Shown piece after piece: positions 5,903 to 62,550 of a stretch of DNA of 64,000 bases (position 1 is the first letter of the stretch; the number at the start of each line of letters is the position of its first letter). Below the pieces are notes generated by a model. It searched no databases, was not told where the DNA came from, and worked only from the letters and a program-made list of their open reading frames with translations. The position numbers were made by a program, and so were the translations under genes. The stretch is from Letharia columbiana. Its lineage: Eukaryota > Ascomycota > Lecanoromycetes > Lecanorales > Parmeliaceae. The DNA lies in NCBI RefSeq assembly GCF_014066305.1, contig NW_023501037.1, positions 1,054,501 to 1,118,500 on the forward strand, written 5' to 3'.

Positions 5903-8900
5903 TCAGTATAGATACGTTGTGCCGCTGTCGTCATCCTCGAAACAATAGGGTTTCAGTCTCGAAGTTCCAATGGCGCCGTTGGTGCCACCCCTGGATTGTT
6001 CAAATCCGGTCTGGCAGGCCTTGACTGAGCGGATGTACTTCGATGGCTGATATTCCAGAGTCGTTACAGAATGGTGATCCCGGTTTGTCAATGGCTCCAC
6101 TATCGTATCAGATATGGCAGATACAAGCTCTCTAGGAGAGGTAAGAGCGGCGGTAATTTTGTTCAGCATATTTTGAGCAGACCATCCATTGCGAGCGGCT
6201 TCTCCAGAGGCTGCCACTATACTCTTCTGATCGTTGTCCACGCCACTGGCGGAGTCTTTGGAGGCGACGTTGGCTCGGACGGCTGGGTGCTCCTGTCTTG
6301 CCGTGTTGGCCAGCCATGCTGTCCGCAGAGAGGCGCCTAAACCCAACGCCACGGGACGAGCTACGCTATTCCCTACGATCTTCCACTGCTCAGAGGGTGA
6401 ACCTATAAGGACCTCATAGTCGGGAAAACCCTGCGCTCGGCGTGCTTCCATTATCGTCAGCAAACGGTGGTCATCCCAATGCAGACAATCACCACCTGCA
6501 CCGTCATCAGGCCTGGGCTCTGTCATTACCGTGGGCATCAACGCATTTCGTCTCACTCGTTGCCAAGACTTTGAATCATGTCTCGATCGAATCTTCTCGT
6601 CCCATTTGAATGAATCGATCTGCGCCTGAGGCATATAGCCTTGCCTGAAAGCCTTGACGAAAGAGCAGCCACTGGGGAAGCGAGGAACACATGAAACGCG
6701 CACCCAGCTAAGGATAGGCAGACTCCTGCTCATACGGTGATCGGGGAAAGGTATGCAGCTTGTGCGAGCGTCAGTTGCTGGTAGATCTTTCGTGGCTTCT
6801 GCTGACGTGACGTAGTCAAATGGTGTTCGATTTCTGGTTCGCGAAGCGGTGGGCACGCCATTTGCCGTCTTTCCCAAGCTTCCACCCCAGACTCCATCTG
6901 GGTGTGAATGTGTTTGTGCAGGCTCTAGTAAAGGCGTCAAGCCTGGAGCTGCAATAGTGATGATGATCCTGCTTCGTTTCTGGGGAGAACCAAAACTCCA
7001 AGCGTCCCTATATTACAATGTCGCCGTCAGTATTGCCTATTTGAGGAGGTATATCGAGCCTTGAAACAGGTTTCGAGAGTAAAAAGTCCGGAGACATTTT
7101 TCATGACTCAAGGTTTGCTCCAAAAGGGGAAATATGGGCTCCGAAAATACGCACAGGCAGGAAGTTCGAACTTGGTACCCCATGCCCACTAGGCAGCAGA
7201 CCACCTGTGCTAGCACGCTGTGTTTCTCATCGCCAAGAGCCATGCCTTTCACGTTCTCCATGAGAGCATATTTGGGACGGTAGAAGTCTATGAAGGCAAG
7301 CACCGAAGCCACCATAGACTCGTTGAGCAAACCACCTGTACATTTCGGAGTCAGCATGACTTCTTTGAGGCAAATTTCTTGAGTCGTAAGACAGCTCTCG
7401 TTAGTAACAGAGTATGAGTCTTTTGCTCTCAAAATATGTCTATCGACTCAAGTCACAGGATCGATTCGGAAGACAATGCTCCGAAGAGTGCACTTACTTT
7501 CATTGCCTTTGTTCGGATTTGCCAGAGAGTATCCTTGACAAGGACTGCCAGCACATATCACTTCGACCTCTCCAAATTGAGCTATCAAGTTTCCCCCCTT
7601 TCCCTCCAATGCTTGACTCAGATAATGATTCACTGATCCCCGGAATAGCTTAGTCTGATTCTGAGTCGGCAGGTTGGCTTTGTAAGTGTGGATCGCTTGG
7701 TTGTACCAATCCACCGCCCAATCAAAACGAACAGCACCACCCTCTTCGAGCCCACGACCGAAGTTTCCTCCACCACAGAACATATCCAAGCCCCGCATTC
7801 TCGGCTGAGGTGGAGCCGACGTGGGATCCCAGCCCTGTCTCAGGAAAGATGGCGACGGGGTTTGTAAAGATTCTAGGCCAGATCCGGAAGTCTGCAGATC
7901 TTGAGATATAATGTAATAGAAATCCGAGGCACCTTGACGATCGTAGGGACTGGGTATTCTTTGCTCTTCTTTTTCCGCTTCTGAGTAAAACCGAACTTGG
8001 CATTGTCTGTGGACGTACGCAACAGGAATGACCTCAGACCGGTCGGTCAGAACCAGTTCGTTTGGATCAGCATCATTGCACCCGTAGTCTCTCTTCCTGC
8101 GCAACAGTCGTACGACTCTGATTTTCCCGTCAAGACCGTCTGGATTGTGCTCGATAAGTACCACCGGTTCCAAATTCTTGCCCAACCGTCTCAGGCTCGA
8201 CGCCACAAGCAAAGTATCTCCAACACAGTATTCAGGTGTTTCATTTACTTTGTGGCATCCACATCGGAAGTGTGAATCTTGCAGTGTGATCCAGGCACCG
8301 TCACCTTCGACGTATCGTTGACGACAAAAAAATTCTGTGGATGGACTCTCTGGCCCACCGAAGGTAACTTGCGGTTTACGGATGACTTCGCTGGCAAGTA
8401 CTAGAGGATCCCCACAATTGCAGTGATCACCCAGAAACAGTTCTTGTGAGTACGGATAAAACATCTTCAGACACGTGGTGTCTCCAGGACGGTAAAACCA
8501 AAGCAAGCCCAAAGCTTGGCCTTCGTCGGTGTCTGAAATGCATTGCACATAGCCTTAATGATTTCGGAGTCAGCATGACTCTTCCGGGGGGGGGTTCTGA
8601 GTCGCAAAACATGTCTTAGAAGCAGAGAACTCTTGAGGCTTGTCTGACGACTCATAAGACAGCATAAATGGGGAAGAATTGCCTCGGAAAGTATAACGTA
8701 CCAAAGTACTCTGCGTCATCGGTCCTCCAAGCGCTATTGTCGTCCTTCGGAATAGCCACCACGTCTCCGATACTGACGCGTATGGGCTGGCCTCTAGCCT
8801 TCATACCACTTGAACTCGGGCACAATGGAATACGCACTTCTAGCTTCTGAACTGCAGGACTGACCTTTGTGTGATTGGTATTTGATTGTTTCTCGCGATG

Positions 8901-10378
8901 AATGAGAGAGGTGGATGAAGATTGGCAATAGAGAAACTTTGCCCAGGGGAGACTCTCGAAACATTTGAATACATACGGCGTGACCTTGAAGTTTTCGGAG
9001 TCAGTACTGCTTCTTTGAGATCAAAGGGAGTCACAAGATGATATCCACAAGTTGACGTTCTTGAAATATCTCTCAAAACTCAAATTGGGATACAAATTGA
9101 GAAGGAATCGCTCCGAAATGTAGACGTACGGTAGTCTTGCGTCTTGAGACGAACTCCTCTCTTGCCGTCAAAGTGGCAAACATATCCTTGATTGTGGTGT
9201 GTTCCACCTGTTTTGGTATCGCACGTAAAATCCTAGGGTGTATCTCCTCCCATATTGCGTGCTTCTCATACTTTTGATCGACCTGGGCAGCTTGGAAGTA
9301 TAGGAAATTGGCATGGGCCGTAACAACGCGTCGAAAATCCCGATCCGCATATTGCTCGAGCCAACGACGAACACATCTGTCAGTGGGGTAGAGATTTTGG
9401 AGCCACTCATAGAAACGATGACGAAAATCGAATAAGGCAACCCTTTGGTGAGTGTGAAGATATTCAACAAGATGCTTGGCAAGATCTGCCATCCATAAGA
9501 ATGGCTCATGATACCGTTTGTACTCCGCTGCAGGGTATGTCAGACGATACCAGACATTGGGCCTCGTGCCTTCAATTGATTGTATCCAGATGTAGGGGCC
9601 CACCGTAGAGTGTTCCGGTTCTTCGTATCCTCCTATGGACAAGGTTTCGAAGGGAACTTTTTGAACGTATCTCTGCTTACCAGCGTAGCAGATAACGCCG
9701 TCAAGGTAGAAGTGTTTGACTGCGTGTTCGTTGATCTCGTGAAGTGACACCAATTCATTTGCGAAAGGGAATTCAGTGGCGCTGCTCTTGTTGTGACGGT
9801 AAGGCTTGTGGGGACGGTAGATGACAAATTTTCGAAGGTCTGCTTCGACAAAAGCATTGCCATTTGTGTCTGTATCGTTGTCGTCCTGTTCCTCCTCTTT
9901 GACCTGCCCACAATCTTAGCTTTCGAAGAGAGTGTGCTGAATTCGTCCCTTTCAACCTACTAAGATGTCTTGCAAGACGCTCTTCTCAGAGTACCTTGGG
10001 ACCGATGGGACATGGCCGCTGTATGCTGTTCTGGGGAATACAAAGTGGGGTGGTCGAACACCAGTCATCCGCACCTCGCTCTTTTTCTCCTTGGACCAAA
10101 TGGGGTCATCCTCATCTGGTACATCGCCAATGACATCTTTAGCTCTCACGGGATGCTCGTCATCTTCTGAATTAGACCTCTTTCGTTTTCGTAGATTTCG
10201 ACTTGAGTGCCGTGAAGAGTCAGAAGGATGGAAGATTTGAGGGGCGGTTGAGGGAAGAATGCGGGGAGGCTTGGCGGCGGAACCTATCAAAAGCAGTCAG
10301 GGTTTCGAATCTACGCATGATGTTCATACACATCTGAAGGTAAATTTCATTACCACTTGACAGGCGTAGAGTTGTCAT
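5903..10378 (-). CDS. dim-2: DIM-2-type DNA (cytosine-5) methyltransferase
   Basis: Seven exons: 10354-10378, 9961-10283, 9903-9130, 8984-8702, 8553-7498, 7335-7155, 7007-5903; 1248 residues. The start ATG is in a 25 bp first exon (protein MTTLRLSSGS...). Residues about 117-374 form the replication-foci-like domain (YIWIQSIEGTRPNVWYRL; PFLWMADLAKHLVEYLHTH). BAH-like segments span about 435-680. The catalytic domain is complete: motif I DMFCGGGNFGRG (725-736), motif IV GSPCQGYS with catalytic Cys about 807, motif VI ENV (847-849), motif VIII QKRSR (890-894), motif X VGNSVARP (about 1092). In Neurospora DIM-2 is directed by HP1 to H3K9me3 chromatin and methylates repeats mutated by RIP (family knowledge). 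No RIP-type stop codons interrupt this copy. Four of the six introns (147, 162, 148 and 145 bp) are repeat-like ILE introns; the other two are 57 and 70 bp. The N-terminal exon joins are the least certain. Confidence 0.93.
7008..7154 (-). repeat. ILE-type intron (dim-2 intron 6)
   Basis: 147 bp intron read on the minus strand, donor GTGCGT, acceptor AATATAG, joining CT|G before the DAWSFGSPQ motif. Its 5' part (ATTTTCGGAGCCCATATTTC) and central blocks (CCTTGAGTCATG ... ACTCTCGAAACCTGTTTCAAGG) match the introns at 12426-12573 and 18213-18357. The end contains a GCAATACTGAC branch-like block. Confidence 0.75.
7336..7497 (-). repeat. ILE-type intron (dim-2 intron 5)
   Basis: 162 bp intron on the minus strand, donor GTAAGT, acceptor GTACAG, lying between the PCQ exon and the ENV exon. 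It starts with GTAAGTGCACTCTTCGGAGC and ends with CATGCTGACTCCGAAATGTA. It shares ACGACTCAA and the TGCTGACTCC block with the MFS intron at 61597-61743. Confidence 0.8.
8554..8701 (-). repeat. ILE-type intron (dim-2 intron 4)
   Basis: 148 bp intron on the minus strand, donor GTACGT, acceptor CATTAAG. It aligns from end to end with the MFS intron at 60309-60459, sharing for example CTGTCTTATG, GTCGTCAGACAAG, GAGTTCTCTGCT, GCGACTCAGA and ATGCTGACTCCGAAATCAT. An ordinary pair of introns in unrelated genes would not align. Confidence 0.9.
8985..9129 (-). repeat. ILE-type intron (dim-2 intron 3)
   Basis: 145 bp intron on the minus strand, donor GTACGT, acceptor CTTCAAG. It carries CATTTCGGAGCGATTCCTTC near the 5' end and AGTACTGACTCCGAAAACTT at the 3' end, so TTTCGGAG and CTCCGAAA are perfectly complementary across the intron. 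Confidence 0.8.
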
Positions 10379-11177
10379 AATAGTTCGACTACCAATCTAT
10401 CAATCCCTTACTCAAAAGAACCCTGGGAGGCGCGGCGTGAAATGAAAGCCAATTGCGCTGTGAATGCCATGAATTGCGTTCAGCCGTAGAAACCTATCTT
10501 TCAAGAAACATGCATACCAAACACACAAGATGCGTTGCAGGAGTCGTCAATGGGTGTGTGTATTGCAGAAATCGTTGACTAGAGAATAATGTTATGTTCA
10601 CTTTTTCGTGACTCGTGAATATAATTCGAGGAGACGCGTTGGCGGCGTGTTCGCCAAGCCGCATGACGCTAACCCCCTCATAGATGTTTCGTTCAAAACT
10701 TCTCAACACGCACAGAGGCATTGAGTCAGCGTCTCAGTGCGAGCTCGAAAGATCGTATTTCTCGTAGCATCAAGGATGATGGACCGCTACTTCAGCCTCT
10801 CCACGGGGATGAAGCATTGCCAGGGCGTCTCTCCCCAACAAGTACCGGTTTTCATTAAATCAGGATGCTCAGGATGCATTTGGCCACTGTTGTGTCCAGT
10901 GAAGAGTAACACCAGATCGGCACATTTCACAAGAATTCAAGGATCTTTCGCAGAGAGGTGAGAGCCGAGCTGAGGTAGCTAGATTGTATGCACTATCTAT
11001 ATGAGAAGCAAACGTGACTGAATCAACTGCATCTGCAGAGGGGGTAGTCGCGGTCGAATTCAGGAATCGCTCAGACAGAATCCTTGGAAGCAGAAATCTC
11101 ATGTTCCTCTATCTCATAACATCTTTGACTGGTGCACTTAGCTGATTCCTTGTTGACATACCTTCTTCCCTCTCCCC
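10379..11177. other. Intergenic, nothing recognised
   Basis: About 800 bp between the dim-2 start and the 3' end of the F-box gene. It should hold the dim-2 promoter and F-box 3' UTR. No RNA gene, repeat or convincing open frame was seen. Confidence 0.5.
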
Positions 11178-13295
11178 TCAAGGCGCGTTATGCGCATCTT
11201 TCGAGAAATTTAAGATATCACTCTCCGGTTCAATGAACTGGACCATTCTCCACATTGTCTTCACCGCCAACATCTCCGCCTTGCCAAAAGGGTCGACCTT
11301 CAATCCCCGCACAAAAGGGAGCTGCTTCAACTTGAGAATGGATTCACCGTCAGGGGAAGTCTTTCCATTAGCGCCAAAGGCAACGACGGCGAGCAAAGAA
11401 CGGTGACCGAGGCCCCAACCCTGCTCCTTGGAATGGGCGTCGCTGGCTTCGAGTATCTGTTGTGCTAGTCGCTGTAGAGCATGCTCGTAGAGGTCGTACC
11501 ATTCATATTTCAGCTTGTAGTTGCGGCTGATGAAGGAGCTTCGAGTGGTTGGCCAGGAGTGGAGATTGAGTGTAATTAGATGGCGTAGTTTTTTCAGGCA
11601 CCGCTAGTTCACTGTTTCAGTATGGGCACTGCAACATTCTGCCAGCATGGCTTACTTGAGCTTGTTTGAATTCAGAGCTTGGATGAGCATCCGAAACAGA
11701 CGTATCAGGAAATGTAATCCCAAGCTGGCGAAGCTCAGTGCACGCTGTGCAAATCTCATCCAATTGCTCGCTCTCGTACCTCATCAGGTTTGACACTGGA
11801 TCTCGGCTTCGAACACCTAAGAGTCGCAGGGTCTTCCCATGGTGCGCTATCGCTGTGGGGTTGGGCAATCCACTGAAGCCCATGATATCTACATGCAAAA
11901 CCTCCAATCCACTCATGGCCTCGAGTAGTCCGTCGAAGGCCTCAAGAGCATGTGTCACGCTCGTCTCTTCGCTATGGAACCAACGGATTTTCTTCAACTT
12001 GGTGGGGCGCAGAAGCGGCTTGCTCATCTGAGCGAACACAGTGTCTGCACCCCCGCATCCATTAATAAGCAGGGATTCCAGGGCGCTGAATTTGATGAAT
12101 TTCATAAAAGTATCAGCAGCATACCGCAAGTCGATGTCTTCTATGCTGAGTTTCTTGAGAATCATCGGAGTGCACGTCTCGAAAGGCATCATGTGGCTAA
12201 AGACCGTCCTCGTGAGGAGACCTGGGCGGGTGCTTGAGTCTTCTAGATCACCATGAATTTCCCCAGAATACGCAAAACCAGAGGAAAGTTCTAGCTCGTT
12301 AAACTTTGTCTGGGTTTCCACAACTTTTTGACAGGCGTTTAATCGATCGACGGTGTCAGGGTAGAAATGCAGGCTCGCGGCTCCTTCCAAACTTGTGAAA
12401 AGACCGGGATTCTTTTCGAGCTCCGCTGGGTTATGTTATCAGAGTTAGTTTTGCCTGCTCGTTGGGGGTATATAGAGCCTTGGAACATGTCTAGACAGTA
12501 ATTAATCCCAAGGCATGTCTCAACACTAAGCGTTCAACTTGAAAAGCGAAATAGGAACTCCGAAGATACGTACGCATGAAGTTCCGATCGACTGGTTCGA
12601 TTTCGACTGCTTTCAGCCGCTTTTGCTTCTTCATCAGTAGTACCCAATTGTCCATTGAGAAAGGCTCCCATTCCTGCCAACTATGTAGACTATTAGCTTG
12701 ATAAAAGCTAGAGAATGTATACTTGTTCCAAGCCTTCCAGGCAGCGAGATGGATTCTCCATAATATGTGTTTCGACGAATTTGCAGAAAGTGGAAGGCTA
12801 CTCACCTAAATTTCTCAAGAATATCATTCGGCAAGAAATCCAGAAGCAACCTGACAGTAAATTGAGCCTGTCTCGCGGCACCCACAATGTCTTCAATCTG
12901 TGCATCTTCTTCATCTTCAGAAGAGTCATCAGAGTTCACATGGATATCCAGAGCTGGAATTGGCGTCTTCTCAAGCTGCAGGTAGACTTTCCTAATATGC
13001 TGAATGCCCGGATTTGATCGACTCAGTAGACCGGAGACTCTGATGTCTTTGTGGCCGCCGATGAAAAGCACTACTTTTCGATACAGCGGTGGAGTAGCGA
13101 TGTCTCGTAGTCGCTTACTTGTCAGGCATAGTGACTTGAGATCTTCCGGCCGTGTGATCTGCAACGACGTTATGAACATTGGTCTAGATAACGGTTCAAA
13201 AGAGATGTGCAGTGGAGGCTTCTTACGTAGCCGAGAATAATGTTCTTCTTGACGTCGAGCGGGACATCGTTGAAGTGGATAGGCTTAGAGTCCAT
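11178..13295 (-). CDS. F-box domain protein with leucine-rich C-terminal region
   Basis: Five exons: 13295-13227, 13158-12806, 12680-12574, 12425-11656, 11603-11178; 574 residues. Joining exons 1 and 2 gives a fungal F-box: DVPLDVKKNIILGY then ITRPEDLKSLCLTSKRLRDI and ATPPLYRKVVLF. The middle and C-terminal parts have spaced leucine-rich strands (LKKLSIEDIDLRYA, SGLEVLHVDIMGFSG, LRLLGVRSR, LRQLGITFP) that look like irregular LRRs. This architecture is typical of substrate receptors of SCF ubiquitin ligases; the substrate is unknown. Intron 3 (12426-12573, 148 bp) is ILE-type. The other introns are 68, 125 and 52 bp. The 52 bp last intron avoids an early stop at 11617 and adds 141 residues that keep the leucine-rich pattern, so I favour it. 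Confidence 0.75.
12426..12573 (-). repeat. ILE-type intron (F-box gene intron 3)
   Basis: 148 bp intron on the minus strand, donor GTACGTATCTTCGGAGTTCC, branch-like CTAAC and acceptor AACCCAG. It shares GTTGAGACATG, TAGACATGTTCCAAGGCTC and TATATACC blocks with the introns at 7008-7154 and 18213-18357. CCTTGG and CCAAGG could form a central stem. Confidence 0.75.
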
Positions 13296-13949
13296 CTTTA
13301 ATCAAAGGAAACAACACAAGAAGATGACGCCGTGTGCAAAATGCTCGAATGTGGATATGGAGCATATGCGTAACACGATGATGATCCCCTCCTAGAATAA
13401 CGCTTCGAGTTTTAAATTGATGGGGAAAAGCAGCAGACTAGGACTTGACTTGTATATTCAATTGTTTATATATTCCAGGCACAGTTTTAGACAGGTAGAA
13501 AGATACTTCGCTGATGTTGAGAGGTTAATGAAGGAACGAAAGGGGAAAAAAAGCAGGATGCAGCTTGGGCTAGTCAACGTTGGGACGAGTGCAGCGGTGA
13601 GGCTGAAGTCACCAGCTTTCCGCAGCCTCACCTCTTTCACACAACTGTTCGACCTCAAGACAGATACATTCGTTGCTCAGGGTGATAAATGAGCGCCAAT
13701 GGTTAGAGAAGGGACTGCACTTTTGCTTCGGATTTTGAAATACGCAGTTGAAGTGACGCTTGGCTTAGCAGATAATGGGCGTATGGCATGATTCGCTATA
13801 GTAGTAATGTATAGACTGTAATGTACCACGATTCGAGAAAGCAGATGGAGTACACATCCCTCAAAGCGCTCTACGTTATCAATGTCGAGCCTGTGGTTCC
13901 TCCAACACCAGTGCTAAACTAATACATGCTTTCATACGTTAAATAATAA
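13296..13949. other. Intergenic, nothing recognised
   Basis: About 650 bp between the F-box start and the VAC14 stop. It is presumably promoter plus VAC14 3' UTR. No structure stands out. Confidence 0.5.
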
Positions 13950-16900: not shown

Positions 16901-17055
16901 TGTTTGCACTTGCTTCTCGAACGATCCTTTCTAGGCTGGAGGCTCGTAAGCAGTGTGACGTCTAAAGAGGGTCGCGCGAGGACAGACTCAAGAGCACCTT
17001 GCTTCCTTTTGTCATAGAGCTTGTCGTTAAGCAGACGCTGCACAGCGGGATCCAT
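13950..17055 (-). CDS. VAC14: VAC14, scaffold of the PI(3,5)P2 kinase complex
   Basis: Seven exons: 17055-16988, 16935-16773, 16720-16550, 16499-15809, 15757-14695, 14647-14570, 14523-13950; 935 residues. All six introns are ordinary (46-52 bp). The N-terminus MDPAVQRLLNDKLYDKRKQ and the HEAT-type helices (YAVHQPHARNGGLIGLAAAS; CFTDQDARVRYYACESMYNI) are diagnostic of Vac14. The C-terminal Fig4-binding region includes NLLQIFAELEMTVNMLIQ, LVQLLESPVFT and LYKCLYGLLMLLPQSSAFAA. Vac14 scaffolds Fab1 kinase and Fig4 phosphatase on the vacuole membrane to control PI(3,5)P2 (family knowledge). Between the HEAT block and the Fig4 domain there is a Ser/Thr/Pro-rich linker. After the domain comes a basic tail ending AGRKGKK. 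The last intron's acceptor (CTTGAG) is set by reading frame, with a nearby CTAG as the alternative. Confidence 0.94.
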
Positions 17056-17574
17056 CGTACGAAAAGAGCCAGCTATCGAAACATCGTTGAGTGCGTAGGA
17101 GAACCCCAATGGGTATTGGCTCAGAAGCCTGATGTTCACATAAAAACCTTGGAATACCGCTATTAAAAGAGGAAAAAGATTTGCTTAAGCCGTGAGATCG
17201 CAATGCAATACCAAAGCCAGCCCACAAAATATCAACATGAAGAGAAGTAGAAGAAACAATCACTGTGCAGTGTGCACCAAGGGAACGAGGTAAACATATA
17301 GGGCACCAACCCTACTTAATTACCTAGCTGGGTCACAATCTCCTTTACCTCTAGGCGCCTACATCTACATGTTGAAGTTATGGTACTTTGCAACAGAAAT
17401 GAAGAAGTACATTGTGGTTGATCATTACCACCTCCCAGGTAAAATGACTAGATGGTGGATAGCATCCTTGAGACTGAAACCTTTGTCACGCCCTGGAGTG
17501 TCCTTTAGGCTCACACGAACCTCTATGTAAAGTAGATTTGATAGCAGGATGAGCACACACGCTGATCGCATCAT
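17056..17574. other. Intergenic, nothing recognised
   Basis: About 520 bp between the VAC14 start and the stop of the one-TM gene. It should carry the VAC14 promoter; no further feature was seen. Confidence 0.45.
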
Positions 17575-19177
17575 CTATCTTTGTTCTCTTGACCTTTTCA
17601 ATGTTCTCGGTCTATGAAACCCATGTTCATGGTCATTCCCACTTCCTAGATCACGACCGCCACAATGTTTTGACCTCCCACTTTCTCCCAACCTTCTCGT
17701 GGTCACTTGGCTCACACTTTCCTTCGGAGATTTTAAGCAGTTTCCCGCCTTGCTTTCTTCTCTCTCCTCGGATGCCAAGCTAGTCACACGACTGTAAGGC
17801 AACGGCACGTCTTTGGCGGATCTCACTTCAGTGATTGGTATCAAATTTGACCACCGAGCCGTCTTTCCGTGGGAAGATGCATGCGAAGCTTTCGACTTCC
17901 CGGAGTCAGCCACCGAAATCTTAGTGACGCTTGGAGGGCTGGTCACACCCTCGACATGGCTCCGGGTAGCTGAGCGGGAGAAGTGATGCGAACGCTCTGA
18001 CTGCGAAAGCAGATCGTCAATATATGAGCGCGGCAGTGGCGAAGCAGCAATTGCATGATGAAAGGATTTGCTGCTAGCCCGAGAGAATTCGCGTACGTGA
18101 CTGTCCTTGTCTGCTTGAATTGGGTCGTAGGTGACTGGTGCTTCGATGGTTCTGGTGGTGACTCTCTTTTGCTGCTCAACGCGAGGGGTTTCAATTTGGC
18201 TTTCGGTCATGGCTGGATTACAGTTTCGCAGTCAGTCTCGCCTAGTTGAGAGGATATATGGAGCCTGAAACATGTTCCGAGAGTAAGTCTCCCAGGACAT
18301 GTCTCAAGACTGAAGATCTGGTTCAAAAGAGGGAATATTGAATTCGACAACACGTACCATAGGCTACAACAGCCCCTGCTGTAGCTCCTAGGACGGTTCC
18401 AATGATTGCCTTGGTTTTGATATCGTCATCTTTCGGGGTTGATTCTGGCCTGACGCGAGTGACGACCGCGGCTGGTGACGTCATAATTTGATTGACGACC
18501 ACCTTAGGAGGCTCTCGTTCTGCATGCCGAGCTTTGGAGTGTGGTGCTTGGACTGTCGATCTTGGAGCTTCGTCAGCTATGCTGTCTGCCACATCTTTCG
18601 TCCATGCTAAGACGCGGTCCTTTTCCGAAATGCGTGTTCCGTCCCTTTCGTTTGGTCCATCTTGATACATGACTCTGCTGAAGCTGTCGACGGATTGCGT
18701 CGAAGTGAGAGTAGTCTGTGTTGTTCCTGATGTGGAGTGAAATTCGAGAAGACCGCGTTTGAGGCTTGAGTCCTGAGGCTTACTTTTGAGACGACAGAGA
18801 GACTGAGCACCCTAGAACGAAGGCTTTTCGAAGCTTCGCTTTTTGCTCTGGTAACAGATATTGAGCTTTGCCGGGTATGGCCTAGGTAATACCAGGTCTT
18901 CAGGCTGTGATGTGTTGTAGTACGGTCCAGGCTTCGCGATCGTTGGAACAAGCTAGCGGGATGTAAGCAGATGTGAGGTGCTCAATCCGGGGTTCGGAAA
19001 AGTTATCAGAGTCAAATAAATGATGCAAATCTCTTACGTCTTAGCATCGATGACGAGCCTGTCGATCTCATCTTTCTGAAGTATACCTCTCAATCTGCTT
19101 AAAACCCTAAGGAGGAAGGTACTAACGATATGATGTCGGTACCTGACAGCTGCCCAAGTCACCTTGATTCGTGCCAT
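17575..19177 (-). CDS. Serine-rich protein with one predicted membrane segment
   Basis: Uncharacterised multi-exon gene. Likely exons are 19177-19127 (MARIKVTWAAVRYRHHI), 19075-19038 (KDEIDRLVIDAKT), 18952 to about 18790, about 18790 to 18358, and 18212-17575. The exon from about 18790 to 18358 encodes SFSRVMYQDGPNERDGTRIS, KDRVLAWTKDVADSIA, then a glycine/alanine membrane segment (IIGTVLGATAGAVVAYAMT) that is completed across the 145 bp ILE-type intron. The C-terminal exon is Ser/Arg-rich and low-complexity. Frames do not join cleanly near 18790: the frame of exon 3 and that of the next exon differ, so an unrecognised short intron or an indel lies there. The family looks like a conserved filamentous-fungal protein of unknown role; no function is proposed. 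Confidence 0.55.
18213..18357 (-). repeat. ILE-type intron (one-TM gene)
   Basis: 145 bp intron on the minus strand, donor GTACGT, acceptor TAATCCAG. It shares ATATTCCCTCTTTTGAACC, CTTGAGACATGTCC, TTACTCTCGGAACATGTTTC and GGCTCCATATATCCT blocks with the introns at 7008-7154 and 12426-12573. Confidence 0.8.
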
Positions 19178-47822: not shown

Positions 47823-49337
47823 ATGGATGGCAGTGACACAGCGGATGACGCCCCGCCTATCTCCTCTGATTACAGCATCATACTGGACTTGCCGCCAAGT
47901 TGCGTAGAGTTTTCACCCTCACATCCAGACTGTTTTGTAGTTGGCACGTACTACTTGAAGCCCGAATCAGGGGCCAGCCATACAACATCTATACAACAGG
48001 AGGATGACCAAATCGAACCGCCAGCGCAGGATCGCAGGGGTAGTCTGATGTTGTTTAATTTGACAGACGAACGACTGTGAGTGCTGACCATGGAACGCGG
48101 CAATATTTCTGGGGATAAGCCCCACAAGATGTGCAGAGAATACTCAGCGATTATTTCTTTTGCGTCCACCAATGATGTGTACGAGCAGGATTTGGCTCAG
48201 TGTCAGGGGTCAAGTCCCTTGGAAACGGTAGGCTGATTTGGGAAACAGAGCACTTCGCCACAACGTGCACCTTGATTATGCGATCCTTGACCTTCACTTC
48301 ACGCCATTCAGGAAAGGTATATTCGCAATTGCCACGAGCTTAGGGACGGTTTGCCTATGCACCATGAATATTCAGGGGACCGGTCCCATAGAAATCGTCA
48401 ACACGTATGAGATCTTTCCTATCTCCTCACTCGTATTGTCTCTCGCCTGGAACCGCGAACTGTCCCATTCAGACACAATAGCGGCATCTTCTTCCGATGG
48501 TCGAATTGCAATATTCGATTCAAAGTACCAGCCTCCCATGACTTACACAAAGACCGAAGCACATTCCCTCGAAGCATGGACACTCGCATGGACGTCTAAA
48601 GGAGCAGAGGATGACTTACGCCCAGAATTGTACTCAGGAGGGGATGATTCCGTTCTATGTAGGCACGGTCTATCCGTTCGCCCCGTCAGCGGAAGCCTCG
48701 ATGAGGGTAACATACCCTCCCATGGATACGATTTTCAGGCGCCTTTCCGCGATACGAAAATCCATATGGCAGGAGTGACTGCGATATTGCCATTGCAACC
48801 TGTTTTTCATGGGGAACAGATCCTTCTGACTGGCAGCTATGATGAATACGTTCGAGTCCTAATGCCTATTGACGGATATAGCAGGCCAAAGATTCTGGCG
48901 GAAGAGAGACTAGGAGGAGGGGTATGGAGGCTGAAAATTCTCGATTTCGAGGCGCCAGACCGTGGCAGGGGTACGTTAATATCTGGACAAACCTCTGGTT
49001 CATACCAAGAAGCCCAGTTTTAACCCAGCATCCGTCCTATGGCTGAGGTCTTTTACCTTGAATAGGTGGCGCTGACTCCGAATCTCCTATAGGTCCAGTA
49101 TTTAGGGTACTGGCTAGTTGCATGCATGCTGGTGCAAAGATTCTGGAGGTTCGACGATCAGACGGTGGAAAGTGGCTCATCAGTGTCCTAGCAAAGTTTG
49201 TGGAGCATGAAAGTATGAATTATGCCAGCGACGGTCGCCCAAGATATGGTGGACGGGGAGTGGAGGGTTTCATCGTCGTTTCCACAAGCTTCTATGACAA
49301 GAGGCTCTGCGTGTGGAAGACCAAAGTCTGCTCATGA
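47823..49337 (+). CDS. DPH7: Diphthine methylesterase DPH7 (WD40)
   Basis: Three exons, 47823-48076, 48249-48970 and 49093-49337, introns 172 and 122 bp; 406 residues. An in-frame ATG at 47781 is an alternative start. The N-terminus is SIILDLPPSCVEFSPSHPDC, followed by WD blades (LDYAILDLHFTPFRKG; NRELSHSDTIAASSSDGRIA; PELYSGGDDSVL). The signature GSYDEYVRVL and LGGGVWRLKILDFE precede the intron, and exon 3 reads PVFRVLASCMHAGAKILEV and YDKRLCVWKT. DPH7/Rrt2 demethylates diphthine on eEF2 before the final amidation step of diphthamide synthesis (family knowledge). Intron 2 ends in the ILE-like block CGCTGACTCCGAAT. Intron 1 contains a possible extra exon whose use would meet a stop. Confidence 0.88.
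48971..49092 (+). repeat. Probable decayed ILE-type intron (DPH7 intron 2)
   Basis: 122 bp intron, donor GTACGTTA, acceptor TCCTATAG. Its 3' end GGCGCTGACTCCGAATCT matches the ILE 3' signature, and the 5' GTACGTTA matches the dim-2 and MFS pair. The middle is shortened and divergent. Confidence 0.5.
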
Positions 49338-50365: not shown

Positions 50366-50664
50366 CGTACTTGGTCTTCAATAAGGGGTTTGTGCTTCAC
50401 TGCTGAATGTATTACTAAGCACTACGATTGATGGTCAGATCATCAGAATCTCCATGAGACCTCCGCATGAGGACCATGCTATCTCCTCTGCTAATCCATT
50501 CTATTCAGAGTTCTGATACCGAAATGAAGACGACCATAACGCTAGCAAACAAAAGCCCTAATTAAGCGAACGACCGCGCTTGTCGCGCCTCTGCTGGCAC
50601 TCAAAAAGTTCCCGATCCTTGCCCGCAGGCTGCGTGGTCCACTGTTCAACATTACTCCTCCACA

Positions 50665-51411: not shown

Positions 51412-51588
51412 ACAAGTCAAGTCCAGAGGAAGAGAATCTTGGCATTGAGTCCGGAGTTCGATGCATCCAATCCCTCGGATTGCGCCTCTCACAACGTAGT
51501 AGGTCTCCCGGAATATTCTATGTGTCTAACGCCGGAAATGCTGAACATCATCATAACCATCACATCATCTAATCATACACCATTACCT

Positions 51589-54500: not shown

Positions 54501-55907
54501 CTGGGTGATGCCGCGGCGGCTGAAATTGGACCAATGCTGTGGCCAGAATAGTTCTTATTGCATCGAACGAATTTCCTAGGGCAAGGCCAGACATGCCAGA
54601 TTCATTCAAAATACACTGCAGCCCTTGTCTTGCTGTGGCCGCAGCGCTCTCATATTCTTCGAGATGTAAGTACATGAGCCCCATAATACGGCGTGCTAGG
54701 ATTGACGATGAGCTCTCTTCCATGCCTTCAGTCATGAGGATGAGCCTGTTCTCTCCGGACAATGGAGAACTGTGTTCACTCTCCTCGTTCTGCTCTTGGG
54801 CGGGACCTGTCAATTTCGGAAACGGAGAAATGTCGCTATCGAAGAAGCCTCTCAATAGCTTGCTTAGCCCGCTATCTGGAAACAGTGCAATGAACTCTCT
54901 GAGTAATCCAGCATCCATCTCCTCAATGTATGTGGCATCTCTCCACTCCAGATCGATTGTCCAGGCAAGCAGGAATTGGTGCTTCAGGATAACCAACCCT
55001 TGCGCCATCTTCTGGACTTGCTTCCTTTTCGCTTCCTTCTTCGCCGTCGGTAGGGCGATGAGGGTATCGTATGCATGCTGGAGGAGTTTCTCCTCGCATT
55101 GACGTCGGATCTTGTCATCGTGGGTCCAGTCGATAATATTTTCGTACAGAGACTCCAGCAGACTGTTCTCCAACACCTCTCTCTTAACCTCTGAAGTGAC
55201 TTGGTCGATCTTAGCTCCAAGACGCGTCCGCCGTTGCCCAATTTCAGTGTTGATCTTCTCCTTTTCTTCCGCTTCTACTATATCTGCGATATTGGAATAT
55301 GTGAAAGCTGGTTGGGGAATTTGACCTTCGAGGTAGTCATACAGAGTAGTGGTGGGCAGTAGAACCTCCAAAGAATGTTTGTATTGTGCCCTAGAACCGT
55401 ACTTTTTGGCATTTTCTGTGTACTTTTGCACGACTGTTTGACACCGTATCTTGTCATTCCTAATACCGCAACTTCATCAGCCACAATATCCCGTCACTCA
55501 ACGTACAAAATCTTGCCCCACATACTCGTTCATGTGTATCTCCGCTAATCGAGTCGCAGCATCATGATATCTGTCAAGCTTCTTGCCAGCTTGCTTATCG
55601 TAAAGACCCACTAGCCCTTGCCATGCTAAAGCGTCTTTGTCTTTTAATCCAATGGCAATTTTGTAAGCTTCTTCGGAATCTTCATTCTGATCCAGCTTTT
55701 CGAGCGCTCGGCCTAGGAATACATTGCTAGAGACGGCAGAGTCAGTCTCACCACTGATAAAATAGGCACAATAAGTAGGAATGTATACGCATGGTAGTTA
55801 TTTGAATCCGTCCTCAGCACCGTCTTGGCTTGATCAATTGCATCCTGATACTTGTTCGCATCCAAAGCAGCTTTTGCAGCTTTGAGAGCTGCTTTTGTAC
55901 CGGACAT
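51589..55907 (-). CDS. SKI3: Superkiller TPR protein SKI3
   Basis: Three exons, 55907-55789, 55726-55526 and 55459-51589, introns 62 and 66 bp; 1396 residues. It begins MSGTKAALKAAKAALDANKY with the first TPR (AIDQAKTVLRTDSNNYHA), and TPRs continue throughout, for example NVFLGRALEKLDQNEDSEEA, WPFAALGVVQLNNQDYPKSI and RVWTNLGTLYLIQNDIQLAN. The C-terminal SAHMTAGLAYYYQGMMDQAI and final QRAVMVAPWTAQGWEALI agree with fungal Ski3. Ski3 scaffolds Ski2 helicase and Ski8 and couples them to the cytoplasmic exosome for 3'-5' mRNA decay (family knowledge). The length is close to yeast Ski3 (1432). Confidence 0.95.
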
Positions 55908-56319
55908 GCTGTAAGAGTACGGTCACTTTGGTGTCTGCATCAGATGGCATGACTGCCAAGGACATCAATCTGTAGATGATAATCTATGGCTGTGACTGAC
56001 CACTGACAAAGCTCCTAGATTTTAGAACGCAAAGGTTTGTTTGCTCGACAGCTCTTTCCGGCACGGGAGATCTGCTACTTGTATGTATGTATGCGTCATT
56101 TGCCGCTCATCTGCCATCATCAACTTTTCCTTTTCGAATTCCGGACAGTAGACTCGCTTATAGGAGGGGAGTTCGATGCATCAACAGTAGAACTGGGTTC
56201 TGTGTTTGTGTTGTTGCAAACTTCAAGTCAAATGGGACGACGAGTCAGCACTCAAACGCTCCCACTCACGCTTCCTGTCTCTAGGGTCTCCCCGGCCTCC
56301 TCGGCCACTGCAATTGTTC
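55908..56319. promoter_or_regulatory. Divergent promoter region SKI3/EGH1
   Basis: 412 bp between two divergent starts, pyrimidine-rich near EGH1. In-frame codons run upstream of the EGH1 ATG as far as 56206 but start with GTG, so they are not used as coding here. Confidence 0.35.
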
Positions 56320-58726
56320 ATGGCGCCCCTACGACTTAGGATAGAGGGGCGAACGTTTCGCGACAGTGAGAACAGAGAGGTTACGCTGCGTGGTATCAAT
56401 GTAGCTGGAGACGCCAAATTCCCAAGGAACCCTGATTTACCCTCGAACAATCCCGACAGGTTCTATGAAGGAGACGAAGTATCCTTTGTTGGCAGACCGT
56501 TTTCCATCGACGAGGCACATACCCATTTCTCACGACTGAAAAGATGGGGTTACAATTTAATTCGTTACGTATTCACTTGGGAAGCCATTGAGCATGCCGG
56601 ACCCGGGAAATATGATGAGGAGTGGGTGCAGCATACCATTGAGGTTTTGAGACTGGCAAAGGGATACGGCTTCTACATATTCATGGATCCTCATCAAGAT
56701 GTCTGGTCACGATTCACTGGTGGTTCTGGTGCACCCATCTGGACAATATACGCAATGGGACTCAATCCACGGGCATTTCCTTCGACCCAAGCAGCTTGGG
56801 TACAAAATACGTACTCTGATCCTGCCAAATATCCGAAAATGATATGGGCAACAAATTATACGCGGTTGGCGTGTCAAGTCATCTTCACCATGTTCTTTGG
56901 AGGAAAAGACTTCACCCCAAAGGCCATCATCGATGGGAAAAACATCCAAGACTACTTGCAGGATCACTTTGTCGAAGCGTGTCGTCACCTTGCTCTGAGA
57001 ATACAGGAAGCAGGAGATATCGAGAACGATGTGGTTATTGGTTGGGAGAGTATGAACGAGCCGAATCGAGGTCTCATTGGCTGGCAGGATGTTTCGGTCA
57101 TCCCCGAAGACCAGAAATTACAAAAAGGGCCTTCGCCGACTGCATGGCAAGCAATGTTGACTGGTTCTGGTAGAGCATACGAAATGGATGTTTGGGACTT
57201 TGGTGGTTTGGGACCGTACAAATCCGGCACTGAATTAGTGGACCCCAAAGGAGAATCGGCTTGGCTATCAGCAGACTATGATGACTCAAGGTACGGTTGG
57301 AAGAGGGATCCAGGGTGGAAATTGGGAGAATGTATCTGGGCACAGCATGGGATTTGGGACCCATTAAACGATCAATTGCTGAAGAAAGATTACTTCGCAA
57401 GGCAGCCGAAGAGCGGCAGGAAAATCGACTATGAATTTTTCACAAACAACTACTTCATGTCATACTATCGAAGACACCGGAAAGCCATCACAAGCGTACA
57501 TGAAAATGCTATAATGTTCTGTCAACCACCCGTCCTCGAGATACCCCCTTCAATCAAAGGCACAGATGACGACGACCTAAACATGGTCTTTGCTCCTCAT
57601 TTCTACGACGGCATTACTCTGATGATGAAGAAATGGTGAGTGCAAGCGGTCTCAATCGAACAGACCTAGCTGATTTATATTGGCAGGAATCGATACTGGA
57701 ATGTCGATGTTTTCGGAATCCTGCGAGGAAAATATCTGTCACCAGCATTTGCTGTCAAAGTAGGCGAGACAGCAATAAGGAATTGCTTCAGAGATCAGCT
57801 CTCTGGCATCAGGAAAGAAGGAATGGAATATATGGGAAACCATCCTTGCATCTTCACGGAAATTGGTATACCGTATGACATGGACAATAAGTACGCTTAC
57901 AAAACCGGTGACTACTCGAGTCAGTCATCCGCCATGGATGCAAATCATTTCGCACTAGAAGGTTGCGGCTGCAATGGCTATGCTTTATGGCTATACATGG
58001 CTTCGGTAAGCTGAAATCTTGTAGTAAGCCTCACACAATGGCTGACGACACCAGAATAACCACGAATGGGGCGACCTTTGGAATGGCGAAGACCTTTCCA
58101 TTTTCTCACTCGACGACAAACCTCTACCGCTCCATCCCGAACCCAATTCGGAAGTACCAGGTCCGACCCCCAACGCTTCTACTGTCTCTGTTGACAGGAA
58201 TTCGCCTGCCTTTTCCGAAAGCCGCTCGACTGATGCATCCCCTGTCATTCCAGAAACCCTGAAGAACAAGCTCTCAACCCCTTCCATCTCGTCACAGAAA
58301 TCAAACACACCATCAGAAATTGGTAGTACGCCCGGCTTCCGTGCTGCCGAGGCATACGTGCGCCCTAGTCCAATAGCTACTGTCGGAAATGTCACCTCCT
58401 CTGGCTTTGATCTGCGTAACGCAACATTCACCTTCTCGCTTGAATGCAAGACAGCTGCTACGGAGGAAGTACCCACAGAAGTCTTCCTACCCGAATTTCA
58501 TTTCCCTCGTGACAACACCACAGTTGAAGTTACTAGCGGCAAATGGACGATCAGTGTCGACGAGAAGTACGGTGGTCTGATCCAAAGTCTGAGATGGTAC
58601 CATGGTGTGGGTAAGCAGAGCGTGACTGTCAAAGGGGTGAGAAGACGGCAGGGTATGGCATTGAGGAAGGAGGAAGAAGAAGGTTATTATGAGCAATGCA
58701 GGCAGAGAGGCTGTAGCATGATGTGA
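56320..58726 (+). CDS. EGH1: Ergosteryl-beta-glucosidase/glucocerebrosidase, GH5 (EGH1)
   Basis: Three exons, 56320-57635, 57687-58005 and 58055-58726, introns 51 and 49 bp; 768 residues. It opens with the GH5 strand FRDSENREVTLRGINVAGDA. The acid/base Glu lies in IGWESMNEPNRG and the nucleophile Glu in PCIFTEIGIPYDM. Other conserved parts are YGFYIFMDPHQDVWSRFTGG, FAPHFYDGITLM and YALWLYMAS|NNHEWGDLWNGED. A Ser/Thr-rich insert precedes the C-terminal beta domain. Size and layout match the Egh1/EGCrP2 subfamily, intracellular enzymes that degrade ergosteryl-glucoside and related sphingolipid glucosides (family knowledge). There is no signal peptide. Confidence 0.93.
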
Positions 58727-59218
58727 ACATCTTTCTTGTGGATCCAGCGATCAATGACACGCGAGCATTGTACCAATCTACTCAGCGGGGCTGCATTCTT
58801 TGTTTGACTCAATTTATTTAGTATTCAGCAAGACCTGAGGTCACGAATCCTATGTCGATGCGTTCGGAGGTGAATTAGCCCCAGACTTGTGCATACAGGG
58901 CTCAATCGGCTTCATAGATCCCAGGTATTTCCATAGCTTCAAGGGCTCATGCCCAAACATTGTGCATTCTATGACATTTGTTTCCCCAAAAAATCAGTCT
59001 CAGGACGTAGAGACCATGATCGATTCGACTTGTGAGATAGTAAACACTTAAATCGTAAATCGTTGCTGTTCTACAATTCCGTAGAGTAGCCTGTGTTCGA
59101 TTCCATATCCGGAGACCTTGAGTCACACTCCATTATTTTAACCTGAGGCCTGTCCGACCCTCATCGCTTAGATCATTACCATTACCATCACCAATACTCC
59201 TCACGTCAATCAATCTTC
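58727..59218. other. Intergenic, nothing recognised
   Basis: About 490 bp of convergent 3' flanks. A CATTACCATTACCATCACCAAT tract occurs just downstream of the small glycine-rich gene. Confidence 0.4.
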
Positions 59219-59488
59219 TCAAACCCAGAATCCTTTCTTTCCCTTGCCAGCATCCTCGACCCCATCTCCTACGCTCTTGGCCCCTCCCTCCACGCCATTC
59301 CCTACAGCCTCCAGCGCGTCTCCGACCGGTTTTCCCGCGCTTCCCGTTACACCGGTAACGGTTTGCCCGACGCCTCGGCCTGCGGCCCCGACGATGCCTC
59401 CAGCTGTCTTGGCCACTCCAGAGACTCCGTTTCCCAAGGTCGAGGTGACGAAGCCAATTGGGTTGTTGCTGTCGTTTGAGGTAGGCAT
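59219..59488 (-). CDS. Small glycine-rich protein
   Basis: Single exon, 89 residues from ATG 59488. It is glycine/alanine/valine-rich with a repeating GxxVGxAxxG-like pattern: IGFVTSTLGNGVSGVAKTAG, then GAAGRGVGQTVTGVTGSAGK, then GDALEAVGNGVEGGAKSVGD. Similar short proteins are widespread in filamentous ascomycetes; a role is unknown. The pattern suggests an amphipathic or membrane-associated helix. There is no signal peptide. Confidence 0.65.
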   Translation of the reverse strand: MPTSNDSNNPIGFVTSTLGNGVSGVAKTAGGIVGAAGRGVGQTVTGVTGSAGKPVGDALEAVGNGVEGGAKSVGDGVEDAGKGKKGFWV

Positions 59489-60005
59489 TCCGTTTGGACT
59501 TGCTCCGCGCGTGATAGTACTATAGCTGAACGATTGCTGATGTGAATGATATCTGTGGCTCTTAACTGGTCGAAATGGTCGTTATCACTAGCCTGCTACC
59601 GTGGAAAAGAAAAGAAAGAGCGGGGTCTGTTGCCTAGGGTACAGCTGCCGTGCTCGGCTAGCCTCGGATATAGGAATCATTCCGCTGGTCTTGGCATCAA
59701 CGTGGATGGGCCGAAGGCCGTTAACAGACTTCAGGCAGAATTGTGCTCAACGCTAGGGCAGCTCAGTAATATTAATACAATGGACATGCCTCATATTTCC
59801 TCCTTTGTTTCGCCTGTTCGAGGGTGTTCTGACCGTGAAAGGACCATTGGGCTGATAGAGCTAGGGAAAGGGTGAGAGGAAGATTCGTTGCACCTGGCCA
59901 TTTAATCTCGTTCATTGATCTTTGGATGTCTTGTCTTGCTTAATCCTGTCATGCTATTAGATCTTGCCTCTTTCTATTGGCTGCACTATTCCTTCGCTCT
60001 TTGCA
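59489..60005. promoter_or_regulatory. Divergent promoter region
   Basis: 517 bp between the small glycine-rich gene and the MFS gene. No specific regulatory element was recognised. Confidence 0.35.
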
Positions 60006-62550
60006 ATGCCGTCAATCGGTGAAGAGAAAGGCTCCACCAAGTCCATTCGCTCAAGTTCTCCATCAAGCCATTTGACAGAGCGGCCTGTCTCCGTGCATGA
60101 CCATGAAGATCAAGAGAAGGTCGTGGCATTAGGGTCCTTGCCATTGTCTCCGAGACCCAGCTTTTCCAACAAGGCTGCCTCGATAGCCACTAATGGCACG
60201 AACAACCCAGATTATGAGGTAGATTGGGATGATGAAATTGATCCCAAGAATCCAAGGAACTGGTCAATTTGGTACAAGGGTTTCACTATATTCTCGATCT
60301 CATGGTCCGTACGTTATAACTTTCTTGAGGCAGTTCTACCTCATTCATGCTGTCTTATGGGTCGTCAGACAAGTCTCGAGAGTTCTCTGCTCGTAAAGGA
60401 CAGGTCTCGCGACTCAGAGTTCCTCCTGAAAGAGTAATGCTGACTCCGAAATCATCAAGACATGGTGCATCGTTGTGTATTCCACATCCTACACTACAGG
60501 CTTGGCAGAGATGCAACACGATTTCCACATTTCTTCTGAGCCTGTTGTAACCTTAGGAGTGACTTCCTACCGTGAGTTGAGGAGAGCAATTGCGAGTCCC
60601 AATGGTGAGAGCTGACTGTGCGACTAGTGATTGGCATTGCTGTAGGGTCTATGATCCTCGCACCGATTTCCGAAATGTATGGACGTCGACCAGTATATAT
60701 AGCTAGCATGCTACTTTTCACCATACTAATCATACCATGCGGACTCGCGACCTCTTTGCCAGAAGTCATCATTGTACGTTTCTTTGGGGCCGTGGCGGGG
60801 TCTGCCATGATCGCCAACAGCCCGGGTACCGTTAGTGACATCGTGAACGATGACTATCGAGCATTGGCTTTTTCAATCTGGTCAATAGGTCCACTCAACG
60901 GACCAACCTTTGGTCCTATAATTGGAGGGTTTTCTACGCAGTACAGCAGACCTCATTGCTTACAAGAAAGCTAGAGAATCTTCTGACAAGTGCACAGGTA
61001 TCTTGGCTGGAGATGGACCAATTGGATTGTTATGATCATTTCTGGAGTTGCCTTCATCTTCATGTGTATGCTGAAGGAGACTTACGCGCCGGCCCTACTA
61101 CAGAAGAAGGCTAAGCTTCGCCGAAAGGAGCAGGATGATGACCGGTACTGGTCTCGCTATGATAACAAGATCAAGTTTTGGCCGCTCTTGAAAGTCAACC
61201 TCAGCCGGCCATTTATTATGGTGTTTACAGAGCCTGTAAGAACCCTTTTGAAGTAATTGTCTCCCCTTCTATTCTTTCTTTTGAGTCTCAGCATATGCTG
61301 CAGAAGCAAAAGCCGATTTTTCCATTTCAAGGCTCCTCTGACTTGTCCTGTAACTTTAAACACGTCTTGAAGTGGCAATGCTGACTCGAACTGGTGTAGA
61401 TCTGGTCCGCCTCCCGTCAATGCTTCACATTTGAGGGACTGAATCTGACAGATCCGCAGCATATTTTGGGATGTATACATAGCGATCATCTACGGCATTC
61501 TATACCTCTGCTTCGTCGCCTATCCTATCGTTTTCACTGGTGTCCGCGGATGGTCCGCTGGTATATCCGGGCTTGCGTTTACCGGCCTGGCTGTAGGTAA
61601 GCTACTTTTCCGAGCCTCTCTTTCCTGATCTGGGCAGGGCATGGAGTTGCAAGACATGATCCGGGAATATTTGACTCTTGAAACCTGCTTTACGACTCAA
61701 AGACTTCCTTTACATGGAAATGCTGACTCCAAAATCTCGATAGGGTGTTTTCTAGTCATTGGTACAGAGCCACTGCTTCGAAGAATGATCAACTCTCACA
61801 AGAAAGACCCTGAGACTGGCAAAGTACCGCCTGAAGCCATGGTCAGTGTCGTCTGTATCGCTGCTGTTTTGGTTCCTGTCGGAGAATTGTGGTTTGCTTG
61901 GACCTGCGTGCCTCCGGTACATTGGATCTGGCCTATCTTGGCAGGTATACCTTTCGGCGCAGGAAATACCGCAGTCTTCATATACGCATCGAATTACCTT
62001 GCTCATAGTTATGGCAGTAAGCTACACCAATCGCATTTGAATAACTCAACGCTGATGGGATCTTTGCAGTCTACGCCGCCTCAGCGATGGCTGGGAACTC
62101 GGTCATTCGATCTCTCCTAGGTGGCACGTTACCGCTCGCGGGACCAGCATGTAAGGACACCCAAAAAAACCTTCTCATCAGCACCATGCATTAATGCTTC
62201 GTGATAATGTCTGGTTCTGCAACGCTCTTGTGTCCCAACGGACTCTCAGATGTCTCGTTGTACCGGTTTTCAGTCCCCAAAGACAATACTGACATAAGAA
62301 TTCTCTAGTGTACGCGAAACTGAATCCCCATTGGGCCGGAACTTTGTTGGGCCTGATCCAGGTAGCCATTATACCCATCCCTGTATATTTCTACAGGTAC
62401 GGACATAAGATTAGGATGAAGAGTGCTCTCATTCAGAGTATGCAGCAGGACAAAGAAAAGTTGGAGAGCAAGCGAAGGAGTGGCGTCCGCGCTGCCAAAT
62501 TAGAGAAAGTGGAGGATGATATCGCGAAGGTTTATTCGAAAACCGTATAA
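60006..62550 (+). CDS. MFS drug/polyamine exporter (DHA1 family)
   Basis: Eight exons: 60006-60308, 60460-60571, 60628-60940, 60998-61252, 61460-61596, 61744-62016, 62070-62150, 62309-62550; 571 residues. The cytosolic N-terminus ends in the DHA1 hallmark [17 protein letters not shown]. Twelve TM helices follow. Recognisable parts are [20 protein letters not shown], then [14 protein letters not shown] (motif A), [32 protein letters not shown], and in the C-half [20 protein letters not shown] and IFVYASN-like [14 protein letters not shown]. The TM pattern resembles Flu1/Tpo1-type exporters; the substrate is unknown. Introns 1 (151 bp), 4 (207 bp), 5 (147 bp) and 7 (158 bp) are long and mostly ILE-like; 2, 3 and 6 are 53-57 bp. 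Exon 4 to 5 uses an acceptor 60 bp beyond an ILE-type AG, as required by frame. Confidence 0.88.
60309..60459 (+). repeat. ILE-type intron (MFS intron 1)
   Basis: 151 bp intron, donor GTACGTTATAAC, acceptor CATCAAG. It aligns over its whole length with dim-2 intron 4 (8554-8701) at roughly 80-85% identity by eye, with both splice boundaries coinciding. The 3' end is AATGCTGACTCCGAAATCAT. Confidence 0.9.
61253..61399 (+). repeat. ILE-like segment inside MFS intron 4
   Basis: 147 bp from donor GTAATT to an AG at 61399, ending GGCAATGCTGACTCGAACTG and GTGTAG. Its length equals that of a typical ILE. Splicing at 61399 would run into a stop, so the frame requires the AG at 61459, after a further 60 bp with its own CTGAC. 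Confidence 0.55.
61597..61743 (+). repeat. ILE-type intron (MFS intron 5)
   Basis: 147 bp intron, donor GTAAGC, acceptor CTCGATAG. It contains ATTTGACTCTTGAAACC, TTTACGACTCAAAGAC and GAAATGCTGACTCCAAAATC, like dim-2 introns 3 and 5. Confidence 0.8.
62151..62308 (+). repeat. Possible decayed ILE-type intron (MFS intron 7)
   Basis: 158 bp intron, donor GTAAGG, acceptor TTCTCTAG, with CAAAGACAATACTGACATAAG near the 3' end. Length fits, but sequence similarity to the others is weak. Confidence 0.35.

Follow-up and report, generated by a model that had tools for sequence, protein, structure and literature searches.

Introner-like elements of Dothideomycetes were reportedly described by van der Burgt in 2012. 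Fulvia fulva, Dothistroma septosporum and Zymoseptoria tritici are among the species that host them (Collemare 2015, PMC4457414). According to the available parts of the relevant papers, the fungal elements integrate seamlessly, lie on the coding strand, bring their own splice sites and leave no target duplication (PMC4457414, PMC3443670, PMC8469720). In the portion of the literature accessible to us, fungal elements of this kind are described for Dothideomycetes and for Alternaria and, as stwintrons and introns derived from them, for Xylariales. The authors of the Xylariales study favour, in the text available, an RNA intermediate that enters at a break in the DNA (Fekete 2025, PMC12403724). 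DNA-transposon introners, found in Micromonas and others, are treated in a separate survey (Gozashti 2022, PMC9860276), in the accessible part of which ascomycete introner families figure as outliers having neither inverted repeats nor target duplications. A literature search with most subscription journals outside it returned no report of introner-like elements in Lecanoromycetes.

The stretch of DNA analysed in this work, hereafter the window, spans 64 kb of a 52.2 Mb genome, which belongs probably to a lichen-forming Lecanoromycete. The class is suggested by protein comparison: within the best 120 aconitase matches, those carrying an organism name come from lichen fungi, among them Alectoria fallacina (a metagenome-assembled genome, 89%), Caloplaca, Gyalolechia, Hypocenomyce, Psora and Lecanora, and the five names checked for their classification all belong to Lecanoromycetes. 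Two putative introns of the window, hosted by a dim-2-like DNA methyltransferase gene and by an MFS transporter gene, respectively, are probably copies of a fungal introner-like element, i.e., spliceosomal introns which would have been copied into the exons of many genes, plausibly through RNA. This assignment draws on sequence comparisons within the window and across the genome. The element families found resemble those of Dothideomycetes, as far as the latter are described in the available text, in being made of high-copy similar spliceosomal introns residing in unrelated genes, in the coexistence of several families in one genome, in the decay toward ordinary introns (PMC4457414), and in the stable folds predicted for the consensus sequences and the seamless integration (PMC8469720, PMC3443670). 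They differ in the class of the host, here probably Lecanoromycetes, the two sets having been compared by description. The features shared with Xylariales stwintrons, on the accessible part of the report, are the seamless insertion, the coding-strand orientation, the absence of a target duplication and the occurrence of closely similar copies in unrelated genes; unlike stwintrons, the elements described here are single introns, not nested ones (PMC12403724). As with the DNA-transposon introners, many similar introns populate one genome, and near-terminal inverted repeats are found in the consensuses of one family, called B. In contrast to what the available text reports for those introners, target-site duplications and co-opted splice sites are missing here, and the elements lie in coding-strand frames (PMC9860276).

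Two similar introns in unrelated genes

The introns at 8554-8701 (GTACGTTATA..AATCATTAAG on the minus strand) and at 60309-60459 (GTACGTTATA..AATCATCAAG on the plus strand) are 82.9% identical by BLASTN over 152 columns, from GT to AG. The E value against the window is about 4e-37, and, trivial matches aside, the 64 kb contain no stronger self-match. Beyond the borders of the introns the resemblance is lost: the flanking exons cannot be aligned, and the host proteins are unrelated. A sequence-only reading of the window had anticipated the resemblance, placing the identity by eye at roughly 80-85%, with no homology between either the flanks or the hosts, and its coordinates proved right to the base. 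The same data bear on the notion that segmental duplication produced the pair. Duplicated stretches do harbour some family members, as the loci L077 and L078, which have common flanks, and C9:671317 and C145:1433, which have identical family A 3' ends. For the window pair, the unlike flanks and the unrelated host proteins refute such an origin, to which we assign next to no probability. In the same window, an overlapping direct repeat was noticed (4152-4266 and 4215-4329, 115 bases, 77% identity, offset 63).

Four introns were placed in dim-2 between 9906 and 5903 (9129-8985, 8701-8554, 7497-7336 and 7154-7008), the second of which, numbered intron 4 in the sequence-only reading, is the member of the pair. 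Their removal leaves one open frame, encoding a DIM-2-like protein with DNA_methylase (E 1e-37), DUF7893 and BAH (E 1e-9) domains; at 8701-8554 the exons join as EYF|GYVQC. The junctions were compared with 120 homologues listed, of 275 found, scoring any gap within 6 residues. Among the matches listed are those of Lecanora helva, Psora crenata and Psora testacea, at 54-56% identity, and others reaching up to 84%. The 8701-8554 junction is ungapped in 120 of the 120 homologues compared, the 9129-8985 junction in 99 (gaps are found nearby in the other 21), the 7497-7336 junction in 116 (4 with gaps), and the 7154-7008 junction in 117, the remaining 3 not covering the site.

The intron at 60309-60459 is the first in the part of the MFS coding region read, and its removal yields SWS|TWC. 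The MFS_1 Pfam match starts at residue 80, just past the junction at 78|79, and support for this junction therefore rests on genome comparison instead. Searching the genome with the MFS protein gave 55 matches in total, three of which correspond to the gene itself, matched exon by exon. At least five paralogues (contigs C4, C7, C32, C81 and C87) are stop-free and uninterrupted through the intron position, the matches starting no later than residue 5 and reaching at least residue 167. Uninterrupted paralogues are hard to reconcile with the hypothesis that gene conversion has homogenised old introns located at different places, with no new insertion. Matching ends and unlike flanks are also expected from conversion, but whole introns should have been converted exactly to their ends at dozens of places, and the base preference seen in the flanking exon sequence (see below) would not ensue. 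We regard this hypothesis as very improbable.

Families of related elements in the genome

A genome search with the MFS intron returned 61 candidates. All the 40 that were scored match the query, and 31 of them cover it end to end (1-151), the dim-2 intron of the pair being recovered again as a full-length match. The last 23 bases of the MFS intron, with up to 3 mismatches, recur at 78 places, 35 of which are forward and 43 reverse; the reversed pattern is found at none genome-wide. Pattern counts vary with the number of mismatches allowed, and are to be taken as minima where decayed copies are concerned. Family A is represented here by 45 copies from fetched loci, which start at the first model position and score at least 60; matches lacking the 5' end or scoring below 60 were left out, and for five of the copies kept, the 3' end was fixed manually at the closest AG. 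The consensus is 147 nt long, with the donor GTACGT, the branch site GCTGAC and the acceptor AAG. The donor is conserved in 34 and the acceptor in 40 of the 45 copies. AAG acceptors are unusual among fungal introns; in family B the acceptor is mostly CAG or TAG. Family A elements inhabit genes of different families and have unlike flanks. This holds also for the closest pair, whose members are 97.3% identical, to be compared with the 98-99% of active Dothideomycetes families in the published accounts available.

Family B was reached via introns that neighbour family A elements in the fetched loci. It has a length of 155 nt, against 147 nt in A, starts with GTACGTACATTTCGGAG and ends with CTGACTCCGAAATNTGCGYAG; 30 copies were read. 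Family B is more diverged than A, the median pairwise identity being 66% (33 rows) versus 82% (41 rows). The 3' pattern of the family is found at 127 places with up to 2 mismatches, the 5' pattern at 88 with up to 1, and the corresponding reversed controls at none genome-wide. The two families are related, since the family B profile also detects the two family A copies of the window (E 1.6e-14 and 1.5e-9). Close pairs are found in both families (96.8% identity in B), which indicates that both have been copied recently, the larger recent expansion being that of A. A third type, C, is present in a few copies. Altogether the elements form a decay series, from pairs at 97% to barely recognisable relatives, some of which reside within dim-2 and MFS themselves.

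The three profiles detect in the window seven dim-2 and MFS introns and three weaker candidates (Table 1), and find no match at E 0.05 in the reversed window. The matches of profile A at 8701-8554 and 60309-60459 and that of profile C at 9129-8985 are such by construction, these introns having served as seeds. At 12426-12573, a family A match at 4e-4 falls on the opposite strand, as expected of self-complementary elements.

Table 1. Introner-like elements and candidate relatives in the 64 kb window
Position	Strand	Element	Length (nt)	Location or ends	Profile matches (E)
8554..8701	-	family A introner-like element (probable)	148	dim-2-like DNA methyltransferase gene, phase 1	
60309..60459	+	family A introner-like element (probable)	151	MFS transporter gene, phase 0	
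8985..9129	-	related element, type C	145	dim-2 intron, phase 0	A 1e-3; B 1.6e-12
7336..7497	-	related element, diverged type B	162	dim-2 intron, phase 1	A 1e-11; B 6e-23
7008..7154	-	related element, strongly decayed type B	147	dim-2 intron	A 8e-6; B 1e-14
61597..61743	+	related element, decayed type B	147	MFS intron, ends set by eye	B 6e-17 (61603-61737)
61236..61399	+	related element, strongly decayed	164	MFS intron, ends set by eye	B 2e-10 (61246-61389)
18213..18357	-	candidate decayed relative	145	GTACGTG..TCCAG	C 4e-9; B 2.5e-7
48971..49092	+	candidate decayed relative	122	GTACGTTAA..CTATAG	B 2.6e-4 (49021-49082 only)
12426..12573	-	weak candidate relative	148	GTACGTATCTTCGGAG..ACCCAG	4.8e-3 and 6.6e-3

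The claim of the sequence-only reading that the intron itself has been copied is supported, as the genome has many copies residing in different gene families between unlike flanks. Its comparison to introner-like elements agrees with the copy number, the presence of own splice signals, the seamless entry, the coding-strand orientation, the decay and the lack of a target duplication. The picture of two introns only has to be enlarged: the two are indeed copies, but at least two related families exist, and further introns of both genes belong with them.

A few observations are worth recording apart. At locus L054 (around genome C12:521400), the family A profile matches three or more stretches of one strand within about 600 bases; this gene, too, thus seems to have been repeatedly hit. 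Longer variants, which have the ends of family B and additional sequence in the middle, and which could be nested introns, are found at L066 (1236-1453, minus strand) and L072 (1329-1545, plus strand), where they measure 217-218 nt, and the first element of L135 is also of this sort. An Rfam scan at E 0.1, run on the MFS copy only (window 60200-60560), gave no match.

Insertion sites and host frames

When the element is removed, a coding-strand frame of at least 100 codons runs across the junction in 40 of the 45 family A copies. The coding-strand frame is longer than that of the opposite strand in 41 copies (the medians are 203 and 84 codons, respectively). The exceptions are L007, L021, L031 and L071, and all of these but L021 have another related intron nearby on the same strand. 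Pfam analysis was carried out on 20 of the 45 host products. Matches at E 1e-5 or better were obtained for 19, and the best domain covers the junction in 12 of the 20, including L006, which falls just under the curated cut-off.

No target-site duplication was detected in the 45 copies, for lengths 1-8 and offsets -12 to 11. Family A sites show a base preference. Among 20 exon positions tested, C is found at -2 in 26 of the 45 copies (p 2e-5) and at +2 in 27 (p 1e-6), and in no case is the element preceded by AG. Codon composition does not account for the preference, because C occurs at each of the two positions in 24 of 40 copies, against the 11.1 expected on that ground. In family A copies not previously used, C at -2 recurs in 5 of 6 (p 0.007, a small set). 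The +2 position was discarded as a site preference, since C is present in only 2 of 9 unused copies, one duplicated pair included. Family B sites (n=30) have C at -2 in 9 cases, and thus lack the preference of family A; G is found at -1 in 14 and A or G at +1 in 25. The bias seen in family A contrasts with Xylariales, for which the authors report none in the text available (PMC12403724).

A [D1,2] stwintron structure of the elements was also considered and rejected, as it needs, before the internal donor, a G that is part of the split outer donor, and G occupies -1 in only 10 of the 45 family A copies. Among the 40 copies with a clear frame, insertions are in phase 1 in 24, in phase 2 in 9 and in phase 0 in 7. 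The family A consensus (147 = 3 x 49 nt) has two stop-free frames, a condition reached by 1.2% of shuffles and noticed post hoc. Selection for readable elements was dismissed, because the 24 of 40 insertions in phase 1 meet a closed frame, and the length of family B elements is not a multiple of three.

In two instances introns abut directly, the AG of the first being followed by the GT of the second with no exon base in between. These joints, at L058 (C29:218909/218910) and L135 (C34:217475/217476), involve related introns of different subtypes. Of the 5 matches to a pattern for abutting joints, these 2 proved genuine.

Predicted folds and the route of spread

The family A consensus is predicted to fold at -47.8 kcal/mol (z -6.3), and none of 200 shuffles folds as well. 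In the predicted helix the bases following the donor pair with those just before the branch site, and the last 20 bases stay unpaired. The folds predicted for the window copies have z values of -1.6 and -1.8, with 12 and 10 of 200 shuffles as good, and fold quality drops with divergence from the consensus over 41 family A copies (Spearman -0.35, p 0.026). The predicted fold of the family B consensus (30 copies) reaches -60.8 kcal/mol (z -6.9 versus mononucleotide shuffles). Five B subfamily consensuses reach -65.1, -63.6, -65.4, -61.4 and -42.3 kcal/mol (z -9.0, -6.0, -8.1, -6.7 and -3.5, in the same order), and each of them folds more stably than its members do on average. The pattern suggests that the predicted fold may be a property of the copying source, which would be lost by decay after insertion.

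In all the five B subfamily consensuses, most of the first 20 bases can pair with the last 20, whereby the terminal Gs remain unpaired. The near-terminal inverted repeat would form a stem of about 16-19 positions, donor bases included, and bring the terminal Gs side by side. In the predicted joining of the terminal Gs, and in having a symmetry that is weaker in diverged members, family B elements are like the Xylariales NTIRE elements, as far as described in the accessible text; the stem spans 10 positions in NTIRE-10 (PMC12403724). Family B also departs, by the inverted repeats of its consensuses, from the ascomycete outliers of the introner survey, as these appear in its available part (PMC9860276). 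In family A the terminal inverted repeat is weak, and the best fold does not use a terminal stem.

RNAalifold gave no consensus structure over 41 family A copies, and one of 3 pairs over 33 B copies. In the latter, 83.3% of the cells of the near-terminal stem are paired, a value falling to 20-50% when the stem is slid by 1-3 columns. Shuffling the partners gives 83.4%, and hence no covariation is seen in this stem. A tally of 55 pairs in the B subfamilies counted 6 compensatory, 21 one-sided and 46 broken cells; it relies on five consensuses drawn from 28 of the 33 copies, which were sorted into groups by eye with 5 omitted, and takes its structure from subfamily B1, toward which it is biased.

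The main rival interpretation is a DNA element leaving no target duplication. The elements would be non-autonomous DNA transposons, i.e., MITE-like introners with inverted repeats, mobilized by an enzyme that makes no target duplication and prefers certain sites. The near-terminal repeat of family B fits this scheme, as does the preference of family A for C at -2, joined in the main set by one at +2, but the larger recent expansion is that of family A, whose best fold has no terminal stem, and target-site duplications were not found. Moreover, free insertion should also produce extragenic copies and copies in the other orientation, while 40 of 45 lie in coding-strand frames. All considered, we deem a DNA transposon unlikely.

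Spread through an RNA intermediate is, in our view, most likely. Once excised, the intron RNA, kept in a hairpin fold, may enter the DNA of a transcribed gene either by reverse splicing or by ligation into a break. The inserted RNA would be copied to DNA, and the new copy would then be spliced, and decay as any other intron does. The terminal stem seems not strictly needed, since family A has expanded though its best fold lacks one, at variance with Xylariales stwintrons as presented in the text available (PMC12403724). The site preference of family A is at odds with simple break repair, which would not predict it. One may go further, and hypothesize that hairpin introns make up a large share of the introns of this genome, and choose their sites of entry, family A by C at -2, while two family B copies sit directly at the 3' end of another such intron. 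We consider this rather unlikely. If true, it would point to guided or splice-junction-linked RNA insertion and not to random break repair, and would imply that an intron closed by an inner helix can do without self-complementary ends.

The new elements of the picture are the lineage, the sequences, the decayed relatives within the same genes and the preference of family A for C at -2. The origin of new spliceosomal introns is a long-open question, and introner-like elements offer one of the rare opportunities to watch the process. Pasting which is exact and scarless, and involves many genes, shows that new introns can come from the copying of old ones. A further lineage, probably lichen-forming, which hosts two related families of different age, makes it possible to compare which of the common features matter. 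The larger recent expansion of a family having no terminal stem in its best fold bears on the role of terminal symmetry as copying engine. In turn, the site preference of family A provides a first handle on how the insertion site gets chosen.
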